Positions 10,917 to 62,558 of a stretch of DNA of 64,000 nt are shown here, piece after piece; the first letter of the stretch is position 1, and every line of letters begins with the position of its first letter. Source of the stretch: Hyphomicrobiales bacterium (GTDB lineage Bacteria > Pseudomonadota > Alphaproteobacteria > Rhizobiales > Aestuariivirgaceae). The stretch covers positions 62,001 to 126,000 of the forward strand of contig JACPNZ010000041.1 of assembly GCA_016185245.1 (NCBI GenBank). Direction: 5' to 3'. The notes under the pieces were generated by a model that worked only from the letters and a program-made list of their open reading frames with translations, was not told the origin of the DNA and made no database searches. A program made the position numbers and the translations under genes.

Positions 10917-13016
10917 ATGGCAATTGTTAGGTCGCTGCAAGAGAGCCGATCGCCAGTCATGACCGCCAACCGCCAGACTTTCAATCTAACCAAGATCGTC
11001 GCCGGCATCGTGCTGGGCATGGGCGTACTGGCCGCCTCGGTGGTGCTCGGCGTCAACTATGCCGTCGACCAGGCGGTCGGCATCGATGCCCGCACCAAGG
11101 CCGAGGACTGGGCCAAATACTTCATCAACACCCTTCCCGATCTCGATCGCCTGCTAGCGACCGGCAAGCTCGACGAGCGCCAGAACGCCGTCGTCGCCAC
11201 CGCCGCCAAGGTCGGCAATGTCTTCCGCTTCAAGCTCTACGATGCCGCGGGCAATGAGCTTCTCGAATCGGATGCGGCGAAGTTTGATAGGAATGCCGGC
11301 AACGATCACCTCGACAACGAAGCCAAGGAGGTAGCGGAAACAAAGCTTGCCCGAATCGCGCTCAACGACGGCAGCAAGGAACGCAACATGCCGCCGCTCT
11401 ATGCCGAAGCCTATGTGCCGGTTTTCAAGGCAAACGGCGCGCTGCGCACCATCGTCGAAACCTATGTCGACGAAACCAGGGTCGCGTCATTCTTCAAGAC
11501 CACCTTCCAGGCCCTGGCGATCAGCCTCGGGCTTGGCATGGCGCTCGCCTTTGGCGCCCCCACGCTCGCCTTCCTGCTGCGCACCAAGCAGGCCCGAGAA
11601 GTGAAGCAGCGGGTCGAGTTTCTCGCCAGCCACGACCCGATGACCAGCCTGCTCAACCGCCGCAGCTTGGCCGAACGGTTGTTGCAGCGCATTGCGACGC
11701 GGCCCGCCGACAATTGCCTGGCGGTGGTGTTTCTCGATGTCGACGACTTCAAGCTGATCAACGACAGCTATGGCCATGAAGCGGGGGACGAATTCCTCAA
11801 GCACGTCGCCAGCAGCATAACCGCGTTCTGCCAGCCGGACGATTTCGTCGCCCGGGCCGGCGGCGACGAGTTCATCATCACCCTCGGGCGCGACACCGAA
11901 GACAGCGTCATGGCAACCGTCGAGGCCATGATGACGGCGGTTCGCGAGCCCCTGACAGCCCGCGGCCACCGCATTTCCGGGCAGGTGAGCGCCGGCGTGC
12001 ACATCCTGGGCAACACGGTAACCAGCGTCGAGGATGCCCTGCACAATGCCGACGTGGCACTCTATCAGTCAAAACTCGACGGCAAGAACACCGCGCGGCT
12101 GTTTTCCGACGAGATGGAAGTTCGGATGCGGGCCCGGCGCGAGTTGGAACTCCTGGTCCGCGAAGCGGCGAGAGATCGCAGCTTCGAACTCTATTATCAG
12201 CCACTGGTCGACGTCAGATCCCGGTACTGCCTGGGCTTCGAGGCCCTCCTCCGCCTGAAGAACAAGGACGGCGTCCCGGTGCCGCCGACGGTCTTCATTC
12301 CGGTCGCCGAGCAGATCGGCCTGATCGAGGAGATCGGCAACTGGGTGATCGAGGAGGCAACCCGCACCGCCGCCCTGTGGCCGGATGCGATGTATGTCTC
12401 GATCAATCTATCGGTGAAGCAGTTCGCCAGCGGCCGCCTGGCCGCCACGGTGCGGGCGGCTCTCGAAAACTCCGACCTTGCTCCGGGCCGCCTCGAATTG
12501 GAAGTGACCGAGTCGCTGCTGATGGAGAATACCGCGACCGTCGCCCGCCAGCTGGCTGCCATAAAGGCCTTCGGTGCCTCGATCGCCATGGACGACTTCG
12601 GCACCGGCTACTCCAGCCTGGGCTACCTGTGGCAATTCGGCTTCGACAAGCTGAAGATCGACCGCTCGTTCATCACCGCCCTGACGGCCGACGAGAACAA
12701 GGCCCGCGACATCCTCGACACCATCGTCACCCTGGCGCATCGTCTCGGCATGAAGGTAACGGCCGAGGGCATCGAGACAGATCGCCAGGCCAGCATCCTC
12801 GAAGCCCTGTCGTGCGATCAGTTCCAGGGCTATCTTTATGGCAAGCCGTTGCCGATGGGTGACATTGGGGCATATTTGCTGCAACGGTTTCATGCTGTGG
12901 CAATCGCCCCCGTGTCGGGTGGCTTCCCGGGAGGACCACTCCGGCGAACGCCTGGCAGCGGGCTAAGGGGCCGGCATAGGCTTCGCGCCTGGCCATTCAC
13001 CTTTCCTGTTAGCTAA
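10917..13016 (+). CDS. Membrane GGDEF-EAL domain protein (c-di-GMP turnover)
   Basis: A 699-residue protein with a transmembrane segment near residues 24-46, a periplasmic sensor region, a second membrane segment near 185-215, then GGDEF and EAL domains. The cyclase site is intact (ARAGGDEF). The allosteric RxxD inhibition site is absent: QPDD stands at that position. The phosphodiesterase site looks complete: FEALLRL, EVTESLLMEN, MDDFGTGYSSLG, LKIDRSF, TAEGIET and QFQGYLYGKPLP. Both activities are therefore possible. The last 40 residues are proline/arginine-rich and unlike the family. An alternative ATG is at 10959. It stands alone, separate from the importer operon. Confidence 0.9.
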   Translation: MAIVRSLQESRSPVMTANRQTFNLTKIVAGIVLGMGVLAASVVLGVNYAVDQAVGIDARTKAEDWAKYFINTLPDLDRLLATGKLDERQNAVVATAAKVGNVFRFKLYDAAGNELLESDAAKFDRNAGNDHLDNEAKEVAETKLARIALNDGSKERNMPPLYAEAYVPVFKANGALRTIVETYVDETRVASFFKTTFQALAISLGLGMALAFGAPTLAFLLRTKQAREVKQRVEFLASHDPMTSLLNRRSLAERLLQRIATRPADNCLAVVFLDVDDFKLINDSYGHEAGDEFLKHVASSITAFCQPDDFVARAGGDEFIITLGRDTEDSVMATVEAMMTAVREPLTARGHRISGQVSAGVHILGNTVTSVEDALHNADVALYQSKLDGKNTARLFSDEMEVRMRARRELELLVREAARDRSFELYYQPLVDVRSRYCLGFEALLRLKNKDGVPVPPTVFIPVAEQIGLIEEIGNWVIEEATRTAALWPDAMYVSINLSVKQFASGRLAATVRAALENSDLAPGRLELEVTESLLMENTATVARQLAAIKAFGASIAMDDFGTGYSSLGYLWQFGFDKLKIDRSFITALTADENKARDILDTIVTLAHRLGMKVTAEGIETDRQASILEALSCDQFQGYLYGKPLPMGDIGAYLLQRFHAVAIAPVSGGFPGGPLRRTPGSGLRGRHRLRAWPFTFPVS

Positions 13017-20352: not shown

Positions 20353-21042
20353 ATGGATTGGAGCTGGCTTCTTGTTTACTACCCGCAACTCCTCCACGGA
20401 TTGTGGATCACCCTGGCACTCCTCGTGCTGTCGGTGTTTTTCGGCATGCTCATGGCCGTGCCGATTGGCTTCGCGCAGGCGGCGGGTCCGCGCTGGCTCG
20501 CCTGGCCGGCCAAGGCCTTCTGCACCTTCATCCGCGGCACACCGCTCCTGGTGCAGATATGGTTCTTCTATTATGGCCTCGGCATCCTGTTCCCGTTGAT
20601 CCCGGAACTGCGCACTAGTTTCCTCTGGCCCGTCCTACGCGAGGGATTTTTCTATGCCGTCGTGGCCTTTTCGCTCTCCTATGCGGGTTATGAGGGCGAG
20701 GTGATGCGCGGCGCCTTTCTTGGCGTTCCCAAGGGCGAGATCGAGGCGGCCCGCGCCATCGGCATGTCGCCCTTCACGCTGGTACGCCGCATCTGGTTCC
20801 CGCGTGCCGTGCGTCTGGTGCTGCCGACGCTTGCCGGCGAAACCGTGGGCCAGCTCAAGGCGACGCCACTCGCCTTCACCATCACCGTCATGGACCTGAT
20901 GGGGGCGACCAACATGATCCGTCAGAATACTTATCGAACCTATGAGCCGTTGATGCTGGTGGCCCTTTTCTACATGATCATCACCTTCATCATGGTGTTG
21001 GGTTTCAACTGGCTCGAACGCCTGGTGCCGCAGAAACGATGA
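20353..21042 (+). CDS. Amino acid ABC transporter permease (HisM/OccM type)
   Basis: A 229-residue permease preceded by GAGGTG. It contains TFIRGTPLLVQIWFFYYGLG, the classic polar-amino-acid permease motif, and the EAA loop IEAARAIGMSPFTLVRRIWFPRA. Four or five hydrophobic segments are visible. Its TGA overlaps the ATG of the M20 amidohydrolase (ATGA), so uptake and hydrolysis are translationally coupled. Confidence 0.9.
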   Translation: MDWSWLLVYYPQLLHGLWITLALLVLSVFFGMLMAVPIGFAQAAGPRWLAWPAKAFCTFIRGTPLLVQIWFFYYGLGILFPLIPELRTSFLWPVLREGFFYAVVAFSLSYAGYEGEVMRGAFLGVPKGEIEAARAIGMSPFTLVRRIWFPRAVRLVLPTLAGETVGQLKATPLAFTITVMDLMGATNMIRQNTYRTYEPLMLVALFYMIITFIMVLGFNWLERLVPQKR

Positions 21043-22202
21043 TCGAGGACCGCGTCGAAACCTACAAATCGGATCTGGTGGCCATCCGCCACGATCTCCA
21101 TATGCATCCGGAACTCCTGTTCGAGGAGCACCGCACCAGCGCCATCGTGGCGAAAGAACTGGCCCGGCTGGGCTATCAGGTGACGACCGGCATCGCCGGC
21201 ACCGGCGTTGTCGGCACCATGCGCAATGGCACCGGCCGCCGTTCCCTCGGCATTCGCGCCGACATGGATGCACTCCCCATCCACGAGACGACCAACCTGC
21301 CCTACGCTTCCAGGACGCCCGGCAAGATGCACGCCTGCGGCCATGACGGCCACACCACGATGCTTTTGGGGGCTGCCCGCTATCTGGCCGAGACGCGCAA
21401 TTTCGACGGCACCGTGCATCTGATCTTCCAGCCGGCCGAAGAGGATGTGAGCGGCGCCAAGCGGATGATCGAGGAAGGCCTGTTCCAGCGTTTTCCCTGC
21501 GACGCGGTGTTTGCGCTCCACAATCTGCCGGGCGAAGCGGCGGGGCAAGTGGTGGTCCGCCCCGGCGCCATCACCGCCGCCGTCGACATTGTCAACGTCA
21601 TCGTGCGCGGTGTTGGTGGCCATGGCGCCATTCCCCACAAGGCGGTTGACCCGATCGTAGCGGCTTCCGGCATCGTCCTGGCGCTGCAATCGATCGTTGC
21701 CCGCAATGTCGATCCGCACGATCCCGCCGTTATCACCGTGGGCGCTTTCAATGCCGGCAGCATGGCGACGGTTATCCCCGGCGAGGCGCAGTTGCAGATC
21801 GGGGTGCGCAGCTGCACGGCCGAGGTGCGCGAACTCCTGCGCAAACGCATCCCCGAGGTGATCGCCGGCCAGGCGAAATCATTCGGCTGCGAGGCCGAGA
21901 TCGCCTATGGCCATGGCTACAGCTATCCGCCGGGATTCAACAGCGCGGCCGAGGCGGCGCTGGTGCGCGAAGTGGCGATCGACCTCGGCCAAGAGCCCGC
22001 CCGCATCGACATGCGCGGGCCTTTCATGTTTTCCGAAGACTTCGCCTATATGCAGGAGGTCGTGCCTTCCTGCTATTTCGGCCTCGGCAATGGCGCCAGC
22101 CGCATGCTGCATGACGCCGGCTACGACTTCAACGACGAGCTCCTCGTCCATGGCCCATCCTTCTGGGCCAGCCTGGTGGAGAAGTTCTTGCGGGCCGGCT
22201 AA
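21039..22202 (+). CDS. M20-family amidohydrolase (hippurate hydrolase-like)
   Basis: A 387-residue M20D metallo-amidohydrolase. Metal-binding motifs seen are ADMDALP, HACGHDGHTTMLLGAA (Cys-Gly-His), FQPAEEDVSGAKRMIEEG and VGGHGAIPHKAVDP, with a late MFSEDFAYM and His. Family members cleave N-acyl or N-carbamoyl amino acids, hippurate or IAA conjugates. It is coupled to the transporter, so the imported compound may be an N-acylated amino acid, cleaved in the cytoplasm. The substrate is inferred only. Confidence 0.9.
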   Translation: MIEDRVETYKSDLVAIRHDLHMHPELLFEEHRTSAIVAKELARLGYQVTTGIAGTGVVGTMRNGTGRRSLGIRADMDALPIHETTNLPYASRTPGKMHACGHDGHTTMLLGAARYLAETRNFDGTVHLIFQPAEEDVSGAKRMIEEGLFQRFPCDAVFALHNLPGEAAGQVVVRPGAITAAVDIVNVIVRGVGGHGAIPHKAVDPIVAASGIVLALQSIVARNVDPHDPAVITVGAFNAGSMATVIPGEAQLQIGVRSCTAEVRELLRKRIPEVIAGQAKSFGCEAEIAYGHGYSYPPGFNSAAEAALVREVAIDLGQEPARIDMRGPFMFSEDFAYMQEVVPSCYFGLGNGASRMLHDAGYDFNDELLVHGPSFWASLVEKFLRAG

Positions 22203-25171
22203 GCCAGCGGCCCTTCCAGCCCGAGCTTGCGCATCAGCGTGCCGTAGCGGTTGGAGTTCATGATAAGCGCCGCGCCGTGGCGCTCGATCAGTTCCTTGCG
22301 GCGGTCGGGATCGGTCGTCGAGGCAAGCGCCCCCCAGATGGCGGCGATCGTCTCTGCCGCGTCGCGGAGCTTGGCCAACGACTCTTGATCGGCGACGGCG
22401 CGGGCGATTGTCTCGCCCGTTACCTTGCCGACGCAGGGCACCGTCGCCGCTCCGGCATCGACATAGCCCGCGGGCAGGCTGCCCTTGAGATTGGTCACCC
22501 TCCGGCAGCGAATCGCCGCGATAATCTGGTCGACTGCCTGCTTGGCCCCCTCGACGCGACTCACATGCTCGGTGTCGGCTGCCGCGTGGGGCAGGAGTTC
22601 AAGCTTGCCGGGGTGCCGCTTGGCCAGTTCGAGGTAGGGCACCATGGGGCCCGACAACTTGCCGGTCGCTGCATCCTTGAAGAGATCGGCATCGATTGCC
22701 GCATGGCGCACCTTGCCGCTGGCGAGGGCTGCATCAAGCGCGGCGGCATCGACCAGCTCGCTGCGATCATAGTTGATGACGATGGCGCCGTCGCTCATGG
22801 CGTCGAGCACGGCAGCATCGACCACGCCGGCATTGGCGTATTTCCCGGTGACGGCATTGAGCGGTCCAAGCCCCGTGTGCGGGCTCAGCACATCGGCGCC
22901 GCGGGCGGCCTCTACTGGCGTTGCCGCGAAGCTGAAACCTTCCGACTCGATCCAGTCGCGATGCCGGGGCCTAGCATGGATTGCGACCTTCATACCGAAG
23001 GCGGCAGCGATGCGCGCCACCTCGCGGCCGATGTTACCGTAGCCCAAGACCGCCAGCTTCTTGCCTTCGAGCTTTTCGGTGGGAAATTCACGCAAGTTCC
23101 GGCCGGTGTCGAAATCGCCGGCCACGACCCGGGCGTGCAACCTGTCGACGGGAAGATCGGGGGCAACCTTGAGTAGCGCCTTCATCACCATCTGCGCCGT
23201 TGCCCGGCTGTTGAAGGAGGGCGTGTTCATCAGCGGTGCTTCGCCGGCCTCGCCATTGCCACCGCCCCAGGAGGCCGACGCCATGTTGCCGGTGCCGGCG
23301 CCGATCCGGACACCACCCAGCGGAAACCGGCTCGCCTTGGGGATGAAAGTCGCCGCGGCGATCACCGCGTCATATTGGCCCCTGTCGGTCTGCGACAGGA
23401 TGTCGGCCTCGGTCGACAGATCGGGCTGGTAGAAGAAATGGATCTTGCCCGTTTCGAGCTTCGCCTTCTCGGCATGGGGCCCCTCGTGGAACACGCCTCC
23501 TCTCGCCTCGGTATGGGCGCGAACCTCCGAGCAATCGGGCCTGCCGTGAGCATCGAATCGAAGGCCGACGAGGTCGCACATCAGCACTTTGTAAGCGCGA
23601 TTGGGATCGTCGGTGCGCGGACGGGCATGGTCGACCCGTTGCGGCGGGAAGGTGATGCCCTGCTTGGCCAGATCTTCCTCCAGCACCACGATCTTGGCGC
23701 GTGTGTAGGCGTATTTGAGATTGTCGAGGAGGGCGAAGATATCCTCGATCGGGCGTATGCCGCCGATCCAGGCCCGGTAGTCGCCGGGCGTGCCTGGAAA
23801 GGCGTTGACATAGCGGGCGACATCGAGGCCCGGCTCGTGGTCGCCGTTGGGATGAGTGATGCCATCAGTGGCGAGAAGCTGCTTGGAGCGGGCGATGATG
23901 CGGGCGTGAATCGCCGGATCGCTGATGAAAGGGTCCTTGACCTTGAGGAGTGTTACCGCCGCACCGCGATGGTCGGCATCGGCGACCCCCGGCTCGAACA
24001 GCGGGTTCGACGAAATCCACTCGTTGATCGCCTCGCGGTTGGCAGCCGAGCGGCGGTTGAGTTCGGCGACGGGCCCGATCCGCCGTTCGGCCCGGAGCAG
24101 GCCGAAAGTCGTTTCGGCGAAGGCGAGCGTCGAGAAGGTATTGATGACGCCGCCCAGCATCTTGTTCTGGGCCGGATCGTAGATCGGTCCCACATTCACC
24201 GTGCGTTCGCCGGTCAGCGGCTTCCGGGGATCGACGGGGGCGGCGATCTTGAGCTGGCGCGGGATGGCCCAGGATGGCTGCTTCTGGTTTTGCTCGATGA
24301 ACGCCAAAGCCTGCGGGGTGAAGCTCGCGACGTAATAGCCCGAGATACCGCCGATCGCCTTCTGGAAGGGCATGAACAGGCAGCACTTGGCCATCACTTC
24401 GGCGACCAGCGTCTCGCCCCAGGGCATAGCGCCCAACATGGAGGTCGCATCGAGCACCGCATGGTGCTCGGTCGGATTGTGATCGATCCAGTCGATGAGG
24501 TTGGCGATGTCGGCGGCCGAATAGGTGGTGGCCCCGGTGGTTTCGTGGCCAACGCCGAAGAACAGCTTGATGCCCATGCGCTCCAGCCTATCGGATGGGG
24601 GCACGGCACCTTCGGCGGGGGCGAAATGGATGCGGGCTTCGTCGCCACCCCTGGCATGGCGCATCATTTCGACAATTTGCGCCCCCCAGGACTGGCGGAA
24701 GAAGCCGGCGGCTTTCGCCGCCTCCGATTCGGGCGCCGGCGTGTCGACGAAGACATGTTGGGCCTCATCGTGGACGGTCATCAGATGCAGGGCGCAGACG
24801 GTGAAGCCCGAGTGGCCGCCGCCCAACCCCACCGCCATCCTGTTGGTCTTGGGAAAACCGAAATAACGATGAATCTCGCGCATCATGTCGAGCAGAAACT
24901 TGTCGGCCGGGTAGCCCCGATGCATCGAGCGGCCAATCTCGGCGGCGGTGAAGGCACCGACGTCGCGGCCCTGGTCGTCGAGCTTGCGGTAGTTGTGCTC
25001 GAGCCAGCGCTCGAACTCGAAGCGGAGGAGCCGGCTTTCCACCTCGTCGGCAACACCGTCGGTGATCGGCCCCACGCCGAAAAATGGATTTCTGGTGCGT
25101 TGCGGCGGACCGGCTTTGGTGGCCGCTATCGATGCTTCACGCTCTGCCGTCAGCCGCGCCGTGTTGGTCAT
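22199..25171 (-). CDS. Fusion protein: phosphoserine aminotransferase-like + phosphoglycerate dehydrogenase-like
   Basis: A single 990-residue frame. Residues 1-490 form a class V aminotransferase similar to SerC: VGLGGGHSGF (113-123), HETTGATTY (209-217), LDATSMLGAMPWGE (240-253) and the likely PLP lysine K271 in MPFQKAIGG. Residues 525-880 form a D-2-hydroxyacid dehydrogenase: NAD site VLGYGNIGREV (708-718), SPHTGLGPLN (763-772), R803 in INYDRSELVD and H862 in LLPHAAADTEH. Against E. coli SerA by eye, the catalytic Glu position is K832. An extra 110-residue C-terminal region replaces ACT domains. It could join two steps of serine synthesis or act on an analogue. It converges on the M20 gene with a 4-base overlap. 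Confidence 0.8.
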   Translation of the reverse strand: MTNTARLTAEREASIAATKAGPPQRTRNPFFGVGPITDGVADEVESRLLRFEFERWLEHNYRKLDDQGRDVGAFTAAEIGRSMHRGYPADKFLLDMMREIHRYFGFPKTNRMAVGLGGGHSGFTVCALHLMTVHDEAQHVFVDTPAPESEAAKAAGFFRQSWGAQIVEMMRHARGGDEARIHFAPAEGAVPPSDRLERMGIKLFFGVGHETTGATTYSAADIANLIDWIDHNPTEHHAVLDATSMLGAMPWGETLVAEVMAKCCLFMPFQKAIGGISGYYVASFTPQALAFIEQNQKQPSWAIPRQLKIAAPVDPRKPLTGERTVNVGPIYDPAQNKMLGGVINTFSTLAFAETTFGLLRAERRIGPVAELNRRSAANREAINEWISSNPLFEPGVADADHRGAAVTLLKVKDPFISDPAIHARIIARSKQLLATDGITHPNGDHEPGLDVARYVNAFPGTPGDYRAWIGGIRPIEDIFALLDNLKYAYTRAKIVVLEEDLAKQGITFPPQRVDHARPRTDDPNRAYKVLMCDLVGLRFDAHGRPDCSEVRAHTEARGGVFHEGPHAEKAKLETGKIHFFYQPDLSTEADILSQTDRGQYDAVIAAATFIPKASRFPLGGVRIGAGTGNMASASWGGGNGEAGEAPLMNTPSFNSRATAQMVMKALLKVAPDLPVDRLHARVVAGDFDTGRNLREFPTEKLEGKKLAVLGYGNIGREVARIAAAFGMKVAIHARPRHRDWIESEGFSFAATPVEAARGADVLSPHTGLGPLNAVTGKYANAGVVDAAVLDAMSDGAIVINYDRSELVDAAALDAALASGKVRHAAIDADLFKDAATGKLSGPMVPYLELAKRHPGKLELLPHAAADTEHVSRVEGAKQAVDQIIAAIRCRRVTNLKGSLPAGYVDAGAATVPCVGKVTGETIARAVADQESLAKLRDAAETIAAIWGALASTTDPDRRKELIERHGAALIMNSNRYGTLMRKLGLEGPLA

Positions 25172-25381
25172 CTCGTCCCCCTGGGCTTGTGGGCACGCAA
25201 ACTAGAGGAGCGTTGGCGCCACAACGGCACAAAAGCGTCATCGAAGAAGCCGGACACGGCATTGGCGATTCCGGCGCAAGCAAGCGGGAGTGGAGAAACT
25301 GGCTACCACAATTGACAAAAAATGCCGTTGCGGCAGACTCGGTCTATGCGGGCCGACAGCGGCTGCAGATGGAGAAGAATT

Positions 25382-26943
25382 ATGGCCGATACGCCCACAA
25401 GCGCCCATACGCCAATGCCAGCTGGTTCCGCCGCTGGCTTCGGCCTCGATTCCGGTTTTGCCGTGAAACTGCAGCAGCTCCTCGATATCTGCCGGCAGGC
25501 CAAGCTCGATTTTCGCATTTCCCAGGGCCTGCGGACGCCGCAGGTCCAAGCGCAGTATTTTTGCCGGTGGGAAAAACATCCCGCCGATCTGATCGACCGG
25601 AAAATCGCCATGCTGGCCGATAACGGCGCGCCGTGGCTGGCATCGCTGTTGAATGAATACCGCGACGTGCCACGGCAGAAGGCTTTCCTCACCGGCCAGC
25701 TGCCGGGGTCGGGCTGGCATCAATGGGGGCTTGCCGCCGATTGCTATTGCTATCGCAATGACAAGATGATCGAGAACGGCAGCGATCCGGTTTATGCGCG
25801 TTACGCCAAGGAGGCGGTCAAGCTCGGACTGACCGCTGGCTATTATTTCAAGGACCGGGATGCCGGCCATGTGCAGAACCCGGCCGAGCCCGGCGCCGAT
25901 TCGGTCTACACTTGGAGTTACATCGACCGCGTCATGCAGGAACGCTTTGCCGAGAAGACCGTTGTCGCGTTGCCGGCATCGGCAAAGAAGGCGCTCGCCG
26001 CCGCGTCCAAGATGAGGCCTACGACGGCGGTGAGCAATGTCCCGCCCGAAGCCAAGGAGTCGGACATCACGGTGTCAGGTTCATCCGTCCTGGGCCCCGG
26101 CGGACTCGTCTTCGGCAAACTTCACAAGCTCGGCCTCTACAATGGCGGGGCAACTTCCATCGACCAATTCTTCAGCTATGACCCGGGGGCCTTTCCCGGC
26201 GTCTCGCCGAGCCTGCAACGGGTCATCCGCTCGGTGTCGATAAACGAAGGCAAGATCGAGGCGATCAACACCTGGGACAACGCCATATTGTCTTGCGGCA
26301 TCTTCCAGTGGACCCTGGCCGCCGGCGGCGAGGCGGGCGAGCTGGCGGGATTGCTGGAACTCTTGCAGCAGCGCTCCCCTACAGCTTTCCAATCCTATTT
26401 CGGTTCCCTCGGGCTGACAGTGGCGATGAATGCATCGCCCGCCGGCGCCTTGCGGCGGGGTTATCTGGTGCTCAACGGCAAAAAGCTCGACAACGCCGTC
26501 GCCAAGACCCAGATGCGTGAGCATATCTGGGCCTATCGTTTCTGGCGTGCCGCCCATGATACGGAGGTGCGCCGGGCCCAGGTGGCGCTCGCCATGTCGC
26601 GGGTTGGGGCTTTCTTCGGCGGCGCCATCGCCGCGGCGGGCGGCAAGACATTCGCCGATTGCATCACCTCGGAGATGGCGTCGCCCTGGTACTGGACGAG
26701 CATGTCAACCGGCCGAGCCATGTGCCGGCAACACTCAATAGCGCGGTCGTCGCCTTCGTCGCCAAAACCGGCAAGGCGGATCCGACTAAATGGACGACGG
26801 CCAACGAGCGCGACATTCTTTCACGTTATCTGGCGGAGCGGGCCAAAACCAACATGACCGACAGCGACAAACGCGCCCAGAACACCGCAGCGGCGGTCAA
26901 GGCTGGCCAGCTCTCCGATCAGCGCGGCAGCTACTTGCCGTAG
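25382..26943 (+). pseudogene. M15-type peptidase with C-terminal muramidase-like region, frameshifted near its end
   Basis: Two frames make one protein of about 520 residues starting at ATG 25382, after GGAG. Residues 20-190 resemble the M15 D-Ala-D-Ala carboxypeptidase / L-Ala-D-Glu endopeptidase family: RISQGLRTPQVQAQYF, then the zinc motif SGWHQWGLAADCY and a late DAGHVQN His. The second half (VIRSVSINEGKIEAINTWDNAILSCG, then FQWTL) looks like a lysozyme-like phage/Vgr-associated domain, not firmly assigned. One G is missing around 26676-26678. Restoring it joins TSEM to GVALVLDEHVNRPSHVP, ending at 26943 (QRGSYLP). It is probably a cell-wall hydrolase; there is no clear signal peptide. 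Confidence 0.7.
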
Positions 26944-61770: not shown

Positions 61771-62558
61771 GCGAGCTTGTGATCGCCGCCCGGCAGGCGG
61801 GCGTGCTGCGCCTCACCCTCAACGATTCCGTCACGCGCAACAGTCTTTCCGAAGCGATGATGGCGGCCCTCCATGCCAGCCTCGACGCGGCGGCGACCGA
61901 TGCGAGCGCGCGCGTCGTCGTGATTGCGGCAACCGGCCCCGCCTTTTGCTCCGGCCACAATCTCAAGGAGATTACTGCCCACCGCGCCGACCTCGACCAC
62001 GGAGCCGCCTGCTTCGAGCGACTGTTCAACGCTTGTTCTGCGCTGATGCTGACCATCGTCAATCATCCCAAGCCGGTCATCGCCGAAGTTCAAGGCCTAG
62101 CGAGTGCCGCCGGCTGCCAGCTGGTGGCGAGTTGCGATCTGGCAGTCGCCGCCGACACTGCGAGCTTCTGCACGCCCGGCGTCAATATCGGTCTCTTCTG
62201 TTCGACGCCGATGGTGGCCCTCTCCCGTACCGTGGCGCCCAAGCACGCCATGGAAATGCTGCTGACCGGCACGACCATTCCGGCGGCCGAGGCCCGCCGC
62301 ATCGGGCTCATCAATCGTGTCGTATCGCCAAACAGCTTGAGCGAAACCGTAGATGAATTGGCACAAAAGATTGCCGGAAAATCGCAAACCACATTGCGCC
62401 TGGGCAAGGCCGCCTTCTACCGGCAGCTCGATTTGCCGCTCGCCGAAGCCTATGCGATGACCGCCCGGGTGATGACGGAAAACCTCTTGAAGCACGATGC
62501 CGAAGAAGGCATCGCCGCCTTCATCGACAAGCGTGCCCCCAGTTGGAGCGACGAGTGA
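61767..62558 (+). CDS. Enoyl-CoA hydratase/isomerase-like protein (ECHDC3-type)
   Basis: A 263-residue crotonase-fold protein: TRNSLSEAMMAALHASLD, FCSGHNLKEI, HPKPVIAEVQGLASAAGCQLVASCDLAVAA and TPGVNIGLFCSTPMVALSRTV. The two catalytic Glu residues of classical hydratases are not at their usual places (GLASAAGCQL, NIGLFC). The CSTP pattern fits the ECHDC3-like group of unclear activity. The start overlaps the upstream stop, and the stop overlaps the next start (GTGA). Confidence 0.85.
   Translation: MSELVIAARQAGVLRLTLNDSVTRNSLSEAMMAALHASLDAAATDASARVVVIAATGPAFCSGHNLKEITAHRADLDHGAACFERLFNACSALMLTIVNHPKPVIAEVQGLASAAGCQLVASCDLAVAADTASFCTPGVNIGLFCSTPMVALSRTVAPKHAMEMLLTGTTIPAAEARRIGLINRVVSPNSLSETVDELAQKIAGKSQTTLRLGKAAFYRQLDLPLAEAYAMTARVMTENLLKHDAEEGIAAFIDKRAPSWSDE

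Follow-up and report, generated by a model that had tools for sequence, protein, structure and literature searches.

The 64,000-nucleotide stretch of DNA analysed here (the window) spans positions 62,001 to 126,000 of contig JACPNZ010000041.1 from a Hyphomicrobiales bacterium of the family Aestuariivirgaceae, the genome of which is assembled as 3.5 Mb in 58 contigs (GCA_016185245.1). Its minus strand carries an open reading frame (ORF) running from 25171 to 22199—990 codons with no internal stop—that joins an aminotransferase domain (N-half) to a dehydrogenase domain (C-half). The initial annotation, made from the sequence alone, described a fusion of a SerC-like aminotransferase with a SerA-like dehydrogenase, covering consecutive steps of serine synthesis or acting on a related substrate. 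Here, by comparing conserved active-site residues, predicted folds and recurring gene neighbours, we arrive with modest confidence at a bifunctional serine–glycerate enzyme, in which a serine aminotransferase is coupled to a hydroxypyruvate reductase of NADPH type; we infer the substrate, the cofactor and the reaction direction. The gene and its parts are as follows.

25176..25182, minus strand: AGGGGGA, 4 bases 5′ of the ATG, resembling a ribosome-binding site (read from the sequence; putative role)
22199..25171, minus strand: fusion gene, 990 amino acids, stop codon included (single ORF, full-length homologues)
23654..25171, minus strand: SerC-like pyridoxal phosphate (PLP) fold type I aminotransferase domain, residues 1–506 (hhalign, AlphaFold model, PDB comparison)
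23600..23653, minus strand: variable, low-confidence linker, residues 507–524 (predicted local distance difference test score (pLDDT) <50 at 507–521)
22454..23599, minus strand: D-2-hydroxyacid dehydrogenase domain, residues 525–906 (PF02826, VIA structure comparison)
22202..22453, minus strand: mostly helical C-terminal extension, residues 907–990 (secondary structure of the predicted model)

The 990-residue frame is a real single protein and contains no frame error. A scan of genome contigs with an N-half profile returned 182 relatives, and among the best 80 of these, to which our counts refer, both halves lie within one ORF at E 1e-30 in 79 of the 80 named contigs; the sole exception (L073) is an N-half of 504 residues that ends in a stop codon. 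Some of the 79 fused frames are shortened by a contig end or lack the tail (L045, L059, L066, L081 and L087). Searching with all 990 residues (tblastn) recovered full-length homologues in 31 plasmid records, each with a single place covering at least 80% of the query at 61–68% identity, and whole-length identity to the window protein is 63–75% across 53 relatives; Aestuariivirga litoralis, at 77%, is among the closest named N-half relatives in the best 80, which probably puts the bacterium within or close to that group. A homologue lies at NC_008379.1:194716-197679 in Rhizobium johnstonii 3841. The uninterrupted ORF and its fused relatives bear out the claim that one polypeptide holds both domains, and the search for the domain pair across genomes that the initial annotation had called for reveals a real, recurring bacterial fusion. 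The plasmid records and named contigs also exclude a frame error that joins two genes, which had been named as a reason to reject the fusion. Truncated relatives do exist (L037, 582 residues, and L073), as would be expected from a decaying gene or from an error of frame or assembly, but with nearly all named contigs fused in frame and the active-site columns invariant, we regard this explanation as negligible.

The fusion is also carried by Gammaproteobacteria (L076, L089 and L098) and by Cocleimonas (L087), which we take to be a gammaproteobacterial genus. Across the phylum, a sample of 398 genomes contains 8 with a match at 1e-60, the bacterium's own included. Within the order, the C-half is found in 37 of 397 genomes at 39 places, of which 28 are in frames of at least 839 residues, 10 in frames of 396–546 residues and 1 is cut by a contig end. 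The N-half is thus fused in nearly every relative seen, and the C-half occurs alone too. In a quick tree of the C-half (61 rows; the short fusions L059, L066 and L087 were dropped, and L073 and the second copy in L078 left out), the fused state needs three changes, of which the branches starred in the tree force two: the fused L036 pairs with the lone L183 (support 100), and the lone L179 sits among fused rows. On this tree, the union of the halves has been made or undone more than once. Separately, the fusion locus L058 and the C-half-only locus L180 have flanks that look alike by eye, with a DMT-type transporter upstream and a rubrerythrin-like gene downstream; as they differ in the N-half, that half was either gained or lost at this position. 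An additional N-half, occupying a 610-residue frame, lies near the fusion in L078 (11027–12859) and on contig 3 of genome G400; the copy in L078 has a basic tail and no dehydrogenase.

Sequence and predicted fold make the N-half a divergent relative of SerC, and the PLP lysine and aspartate are in place. Searched alone against Pfam, it has no match at E 0.001, and NCBIfam yields weak matches to phosphoserine transaminase (NF002841, E 1.2e-13; TIGR01365, E 1.5e-7) that do not reach the curated cut-offs (50.8 versus 477 bits and 30.9 versus 448.2 bits). hhalign against a reference profile of eight canonical SerC proteins gives a probability of 98.8% (E 1.1e-16, 26% identity over 378 columns). 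The N-half profile (alignment A1) has no match at E 0.1 among PDB sequences, so a fold comparison was needed, and because Foldseek with the whole model returned only dehydrogenases in its top 50, as did VIA, the N-half was folded separately. The AlphaFold model of residues 1–507 (pLDDT 87, predicted template modelling score 0.87) is best matched by Mycobacterium tuberculosis SerC (3vom_A; Z 27.4, root mean squared deviation 2.9, 357 residues aligned), followed by SerC 2fyf_A (Z 27.2) and then by alanine–glyoxylate aminotransferases (Z ≤25.8). Other class V families were compared by hhalign with a single sequence on each template side and rejected: two Sga-like proteins scored 1.7% and 1.0% probability, and PhnW and three proteins identified by eye (SufS, kynureninase and an unassigned class V protein) reached at most 2.1%, versus 96.9% for the genome's own SerC. 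The following N-half residues were counted in an alignment of 50 rows.

24917..24922, minus strand: His84-Arg85, counterpart of the phosphate-site His44-Arg45 of phosphoserine aminotransferase (PSAT; human numbering), kept in 50/50
24449..24451, minus strand: Asp241, counterpart of the PLP-pyridine Asp, 50/50
24359..24361, minus strand: Lys271, predicted PLP Schiff-base lysine, 50/50, aligned with the QK of SerC
23807..23809, minus strand: Val455, at the place of the PSAT phosphate-binding Arg336; Val in 38/50 and Ile in 12/50 (hhalign alignment, in a loop where the alignment is unsure)
23774..23776, minus strand: Arg466, counterpart of the substrate-carboxylate Arg342, 50/50

Gln270 and Asn344-Thr345 of the PLP site are likewise invariant (50/50). 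Sequence comparison, fold and PLP-site residues therefore agree on a SerC-like N-half, and both Lys271 (in QKAIGG) and the dinucleotide-binding motif of the C-half lie where the initial annotation placed them. The phosphate site of human PSAT comprises His44, Arg45, His335 and Arg336 (PMC10031235, available excerpt). The SerC arginine matching Arg336 (Arg343) is invariant in all eight canonical proteins; in the fusion this position is Val or Ile, and Tyr454 stands at the His335 position, where the genome's own SerC also has Tyr.

The C-half, judged by the same kinds of comparison, is a D-2-hydroxyacid dehydrogenase and not SerA. Pfam finds only dinucleotide-binding families in the fusion, chiefly PF02826 (residues 676–827, E 1.3e-25; 90.3 bits versus a cut-off of 25.1), which together with the structure comparison upholds the dehydrogenase assignment. 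By VIA-align, the fold is a tie between 3-phosphoglycerate dehydrogenase (PGDH; 3dc2_A and 5tx7_A, Z 26.1) and glyoxylate/hydroxypyruvate reductase (5aov, Z 25.8), and the SerA cut-offs are not reached (63.4 versus 454 bits and 57 versus 404 bits). C-half residues were counted in 54 fusion rows, to which alignment A2 adds seven lone C-halves.

23351..23356, minus strand: Ala606-Ala607, at the place of the phosphate-binding Arg-Ser of SerA, Ala-Ala in 54/54, aligned with IRSAT of the genome's own SerA
23027..23044, minus strand: GYGNIG dinucleotide-binding motif, residues 710–715 (from the sequence)
22970..22972, minus strand: Arg734 after β-B, an NADP(H)-type signature where NAD-type families including SerA have Asp, 54/54
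22763..22765, minus strand: Arg803, catalytic Arg, 54/54
22685..22687, minus strand: Asp829, invariant acid, 54/54
22586..22588, minus strand: His862, catalytic His, 54/54

The Ala-Ala pair is also present in the seven lone C-halves. According to the available part of PMC6303947, SERA and PDXB have an Arg-Ser motif, and phosphate binding by its Arg has been shown for SERA and proposed for PDXB; SERA, PDXB, LDHD, CTBP and FDH have an Asp after β-B that goes with NADH; and many GHRA reductases carry an Arg motif for NADP(H). The same excerpt gives natural oxidation for FDH, SERA, PDXB and two GHRB enzymes, and describes members that reduce ketoacids in most subfamilies, with one GHRC enzyme also running in reverse. 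The label 'SerA-like' is not supported, as both the phosphate-binding Arg-Ser and the NAD-type Asp are absent. The linker is more variable than the domains that it joins (mean majority fraction 0.62 for residues 500–524 versus 0.79 and 0.78). The C-terminal extension is less conserved (0.58) and is present in 9 of the 10 other rows of A2, the L034 row being cut before it; lone or short forms that end near residue 911 occur in L179, L180, L182 and L189.

These residues bear directly on whether the fusion is a second serine-synthesis copy, with PGDH and PSAT in one chain, as the initial annotation implied. SerC is closest to the N-half in both sequence and fold, the dehydrogenase fold is on par with PGDH, His84-Arg85 of the PSAT phosphate site is kept, and PGDH–PSAT fusions are found in oomycetes, brown algae and Thecamonas (PMC2705460 and PMC5715807, available parts). 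Both halves, however, lack a phosphate-gripping Arg—the SERA-invariant Arg is absent in all 54 rows and the PSAT Arg336 in all 50—which argues against 3-phosphoglycerate and phosphoserine as substrates; Arg replaces the Asp of NAD-type families, and the scores are far below the SerA and SerC cut-offs. The initial annotation had suggested looking for separate genes, and the genome has an ordinary serC–serA pair on contig 22, where canonical SerC (623 bits) adjoins canonical SerA (683 bits). Canonical SerC is above the cut-off in 20 of the 21 related genomes searched, own included, and both the lone C-half and the fusion are linked to glycerate kinase. We consequently think a serine-synthesis copy improbable, and the proposal of consecutive steps in serine synthesis is not supported, given the missing phosphate arginines, the canonical pair and a recurrent neighbour that points to glycerate. 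Of the 12 other genomes of the same genus, 8 show the fusion as a further, weak match, in frames of at least 998 residues in seven and of 669 residues in G402. Another genome of the genus (G409, given as 99% complete) has a lone C-half and no TIGR01365 match, canonical or fused.

The missing phosphate-gripping Arg in both halves equally argues against a fusion of PdxB–SerC type, which would serve PLP synthesis by converting 4-phosphoerythronate to 4-phosphohydroxythreonine. PdxB and SerC catalyse successive steps in Escherichia coli, and there are weak PdxB profile matches. Against this stand the links to glycerate kinase and the absence of both the Arg-Ser motif and the NAD-type Asp described for PDXB in the available excerpt of PMC6303947, making such a fusion highly improbable.

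Evidence for glycerate comes from neighbouring genes. We searched every locus in the set at that stage for the kinase family concerned (glycerate kinase, DUF4147+MOFRL), using tblastn with a threshold of 1e-10; flanking gene calls at many loci are from a codon-usage script, and the sequence extends 1.2 kb or further beyond the fusion in 77 of the 85 fused loci examined (L073 was left out, and L078 measured from its second N-copy). In L093 a kinase 66% identical to the plasmid kinase directly follows the fusion, and in genome G485 (locus L192) a kinase begins 67 bases after the fusion stop and is the single PF13660 match in that genome. Three Sinorhizobium loci (L090, L101 and L105) have broken kinase remnants directly after the fusion, at about 10983–11404; they and L093 belong to one cluster of fusions. 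On the plasmids pMET1 and pTAV1, a TRAP transporter, a class II aldolase and a lone C-half precede the kinase in nearly the same operon, with kinases 96% identical. On a Pseudochrobactrum algeriensis plasmid (L034, 8998–11457), the C-half and the kinase share one ORF of 819 residues; in the PLSDB gene table, which describes itself as incomplete, that ORF is represented by its kinase part alone. No kinase was found at ten lone C-halves (L179–L188) with flanks of up to 6 kb, or in the 766 downstream bases at L172 (genome G562, of the same genus as G485). The association of the fusion or C-half with the kinase is therefore one that recurs but is not general. At the genome level, the kinase family is present in all 37 C-half genomes versus 341 of 397 in the order (P 0.0027, with kinship ignored and genomes matched by eye) and in 4 of 14 control genomes; the bacterium's own glycerate kinase is on contig 45.

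Other neighbours fit a flow of carbon, from serine derived from C1 compounds or betaine or from an aldolase product, to glycerate. Upstream of the fusion in L105 are a class V aminotransferase, an HpcH/HpaI lyase, a BCCT transporter and two genes read by eye as malate–CoA ligase (malate thiokinase) subunits; the thiokinase-like gene recurs in seven loci, all of one cluster. L036 has upstream a DAO+GCV_T protein of the dimethylglycine/sarcosine dehydrogenase kind. Lone C-halves follow HpcH/HpaI-type aldolases in L183 (4977–5834) and, with one gene between, in L033 (6722–7504), in clusters that are probably catabolic. ABC transporter genes lie further upstream of both aldolases. In the bacterium's own genome, an Sga/BhcA-like aminotransferase gene just below the BhcA cut-off adjoins malate–CoA ligase beta (G000:C33:42918-43769 and neighbour, locus L004), an arrangement that suggests a serine cycle.

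A rival reading is that the fusion acts on a different unphosphorylated pair: glycine, glyoxylate and glycolate, or a longer β-hydroxy amino acid, such as 4-hydroxythreonine taken to erythronate. GHR-type reductases accept glyoxylate besides hydroxypyruvate (PMC6303947, available excerpt), and the neighbours of the fusion vary, including genes named by eye as hydroxyproline-epimerase-like near the fusion in L071 and L102. The enzyme that adjoins it more than once in unrelated settings is nevertheless glycerate kinase, and we rate such a pair as unlikely, if still to be reckoned with.

Several observations weigh against the serine–glycerate assignment. The nearest fold of the PLP half is PSAT, the dehydrogenase fold ties with PGDHs, and three of the four PSAT phosphate-site positions read as in the genome's own SerC. 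The Val455 loop is longer than in SerC and poorly predicted (residues 457–462, pLDDT <50 in the full model), and Arg453, which is invariant, could take over from the lost Arg, so that the loss at 455 is strong evidence but not final. In the dehydrogenase, the usual catalytic Glu is absent from its place in the alignment with the genome's own SerA; the invariant Asp829 may replace it. Kinase adjacency is a minority feature, with two intact cases (L093 and G485) and three remnants, in two clades, among the 85 fused loci; of 16 distinct places with a lone C-half, three have a kinase, and two of those three are the same operon. There is no glycerate kinase within the 64-kb window, and the family is common in the order regardless. 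Surroundings in the other fusion loci whose neighbours were read, among 34 cluster representatives, are varied and share no theme.

We propose that, in a serine–glycerate enzyme of this kind, the PLP-dependent N-half, an altered SerC descendant, would transfer the amino group of L-serine to a 2-oxoacid—probably glyoxylate or pyruvate—and release hydroxypyruvate, which the C-half would reduce with NADPH to D-glycerate. A glycerate kinase, next door or elsewhere in the genome, would then turn glycerate into phosphoglycerate for glycolysis. Joining the domains would hold the reactive intermediate low. Channelling between the halves, raised in the initial annotation, is possible, but the linker is variable and of low confidence in the model, so a fixed tunnel is not indicated and proximity is the most that can be claimed. 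The related substrate that had been offered there as a fallback is the reading that the lost phosphate-site residues and the kinase neighbours favour, by inference.

Set against known systems, the fusion combines known classes of enzyme in a new way, and its SerC-like half probably acts on a new substrate. With SerC_2 phosphoserine transaminase (TIGR01365/NF002841; 3vom, 2fyf), the N-half shares the fold, the PLP Lys, the Asp, the Asn-Thr, the carboxylate Arg and the phosphate-site His-Arg; it differs in being only 26% identical in the profile alignment and about 130 residues longer, with Val or Ile for Arg336 and scores far under both curated cut-offs. The C-half resembles the GHRA, GHRB and GHRC reductases in its Rossmann fold, its catalytic Arg and His and its lack of the cofactor-loop Asp (with Arg as in the GHRA motif), but shows about 20% identity to them in structure alignment, carries an insertion ahead of the catalytic His, lacks Glu where it is normally found and ends in a helical C-terminal tail. 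The eukaryotic PGDH–PSAT fusions (Ps142688 and PITG_00133) likewise combine a 2-hydroxyacid dehydrogenase with an aminotransferase on a single polypeptide, the latter being of SerC_2 type in stramenopiles; they differ in having the reverse domain order and a PGDH domain that clusters with animals, in being assigned to the phosphorylated pathway and, in oomycetes, in being mitochondrial. The reverse order holds for oomycetes, brown algae and Thecamonas in the available parts of PMC2705460 and PMC5715807, and these published fusions qualify the earlier statement that the two activities are separate in canonical genomes. The proposed reactions and their order are shared with the serine–glyoxylate aminotransferase and hydroxypyruvate reductase of the serine cycle. 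These are separate genes, and the aminotransferase belongs to another subfamily, that of the Sga-like proteins rejected above. A bacterial fusion of this kind was not found in the open-licence literature searched, which is weak evidence of absence; the available parts of PMC5764234, PMC7311316 and PMC3901274 contain nothing on such a fusion.

In the window itself, a convergent gene (21039–22202, M20-type amidohydrolase) overlaps the end of the fusion ORF by 4 bases. In L038, L040, L042 and L052, the fusion again faces a gene resembling this amidohydrolase, behind which lie genes identified by eye as belonging to an amino-acid ABC transporter; because the genes face each other, we read this recurrence as shared descent. 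A divergent neighbour (25322–26857, plus strand) has a borderline VanY match (25.1 bits versus a cut-off of 25). An open frame of 646 residues antisense to the fusion (23375–25315, plus strand) was taken as spurious, such frames being common in G+C-rich genes. Rfam gave no match at the gathering score in the 64-kb window and eight fusion loci, and a scan of 24900–25500 found no promoter-like site and one terminator-like site, for which shuffles give 0.5.

Taken further, and tentatively, the fusion could be a dedicated single-chain enzyme that takes L-serine to D-glycerate, made up of a SerC put to new use and a hydroxypyruvate reductase that depends on NADPH, and found on plasmids of rhizobia as well as in scattered members of the Alpha- and Gammaproteobacteria; with glycerate kinase, it would form a compact shunt from serine to glycolysis that avoids serine dehydratase as well as SgaA and HprA, the separate enzymes of the serine cycle. 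If this is correct, SerC would have been recast from serine making to serine breakdown, both of the joined domains having lost some of their hold on phosphate, and SerA/SerC readings of the fusion would be corrected. A protein labelled only 'NAD(P)-dependent oxidoreductase' in annotated rhizobial plasmid records would gain a testable two-step function, and would offer an enzyme that moves serine carbon into glycerate with little free hydroxypyruvate.

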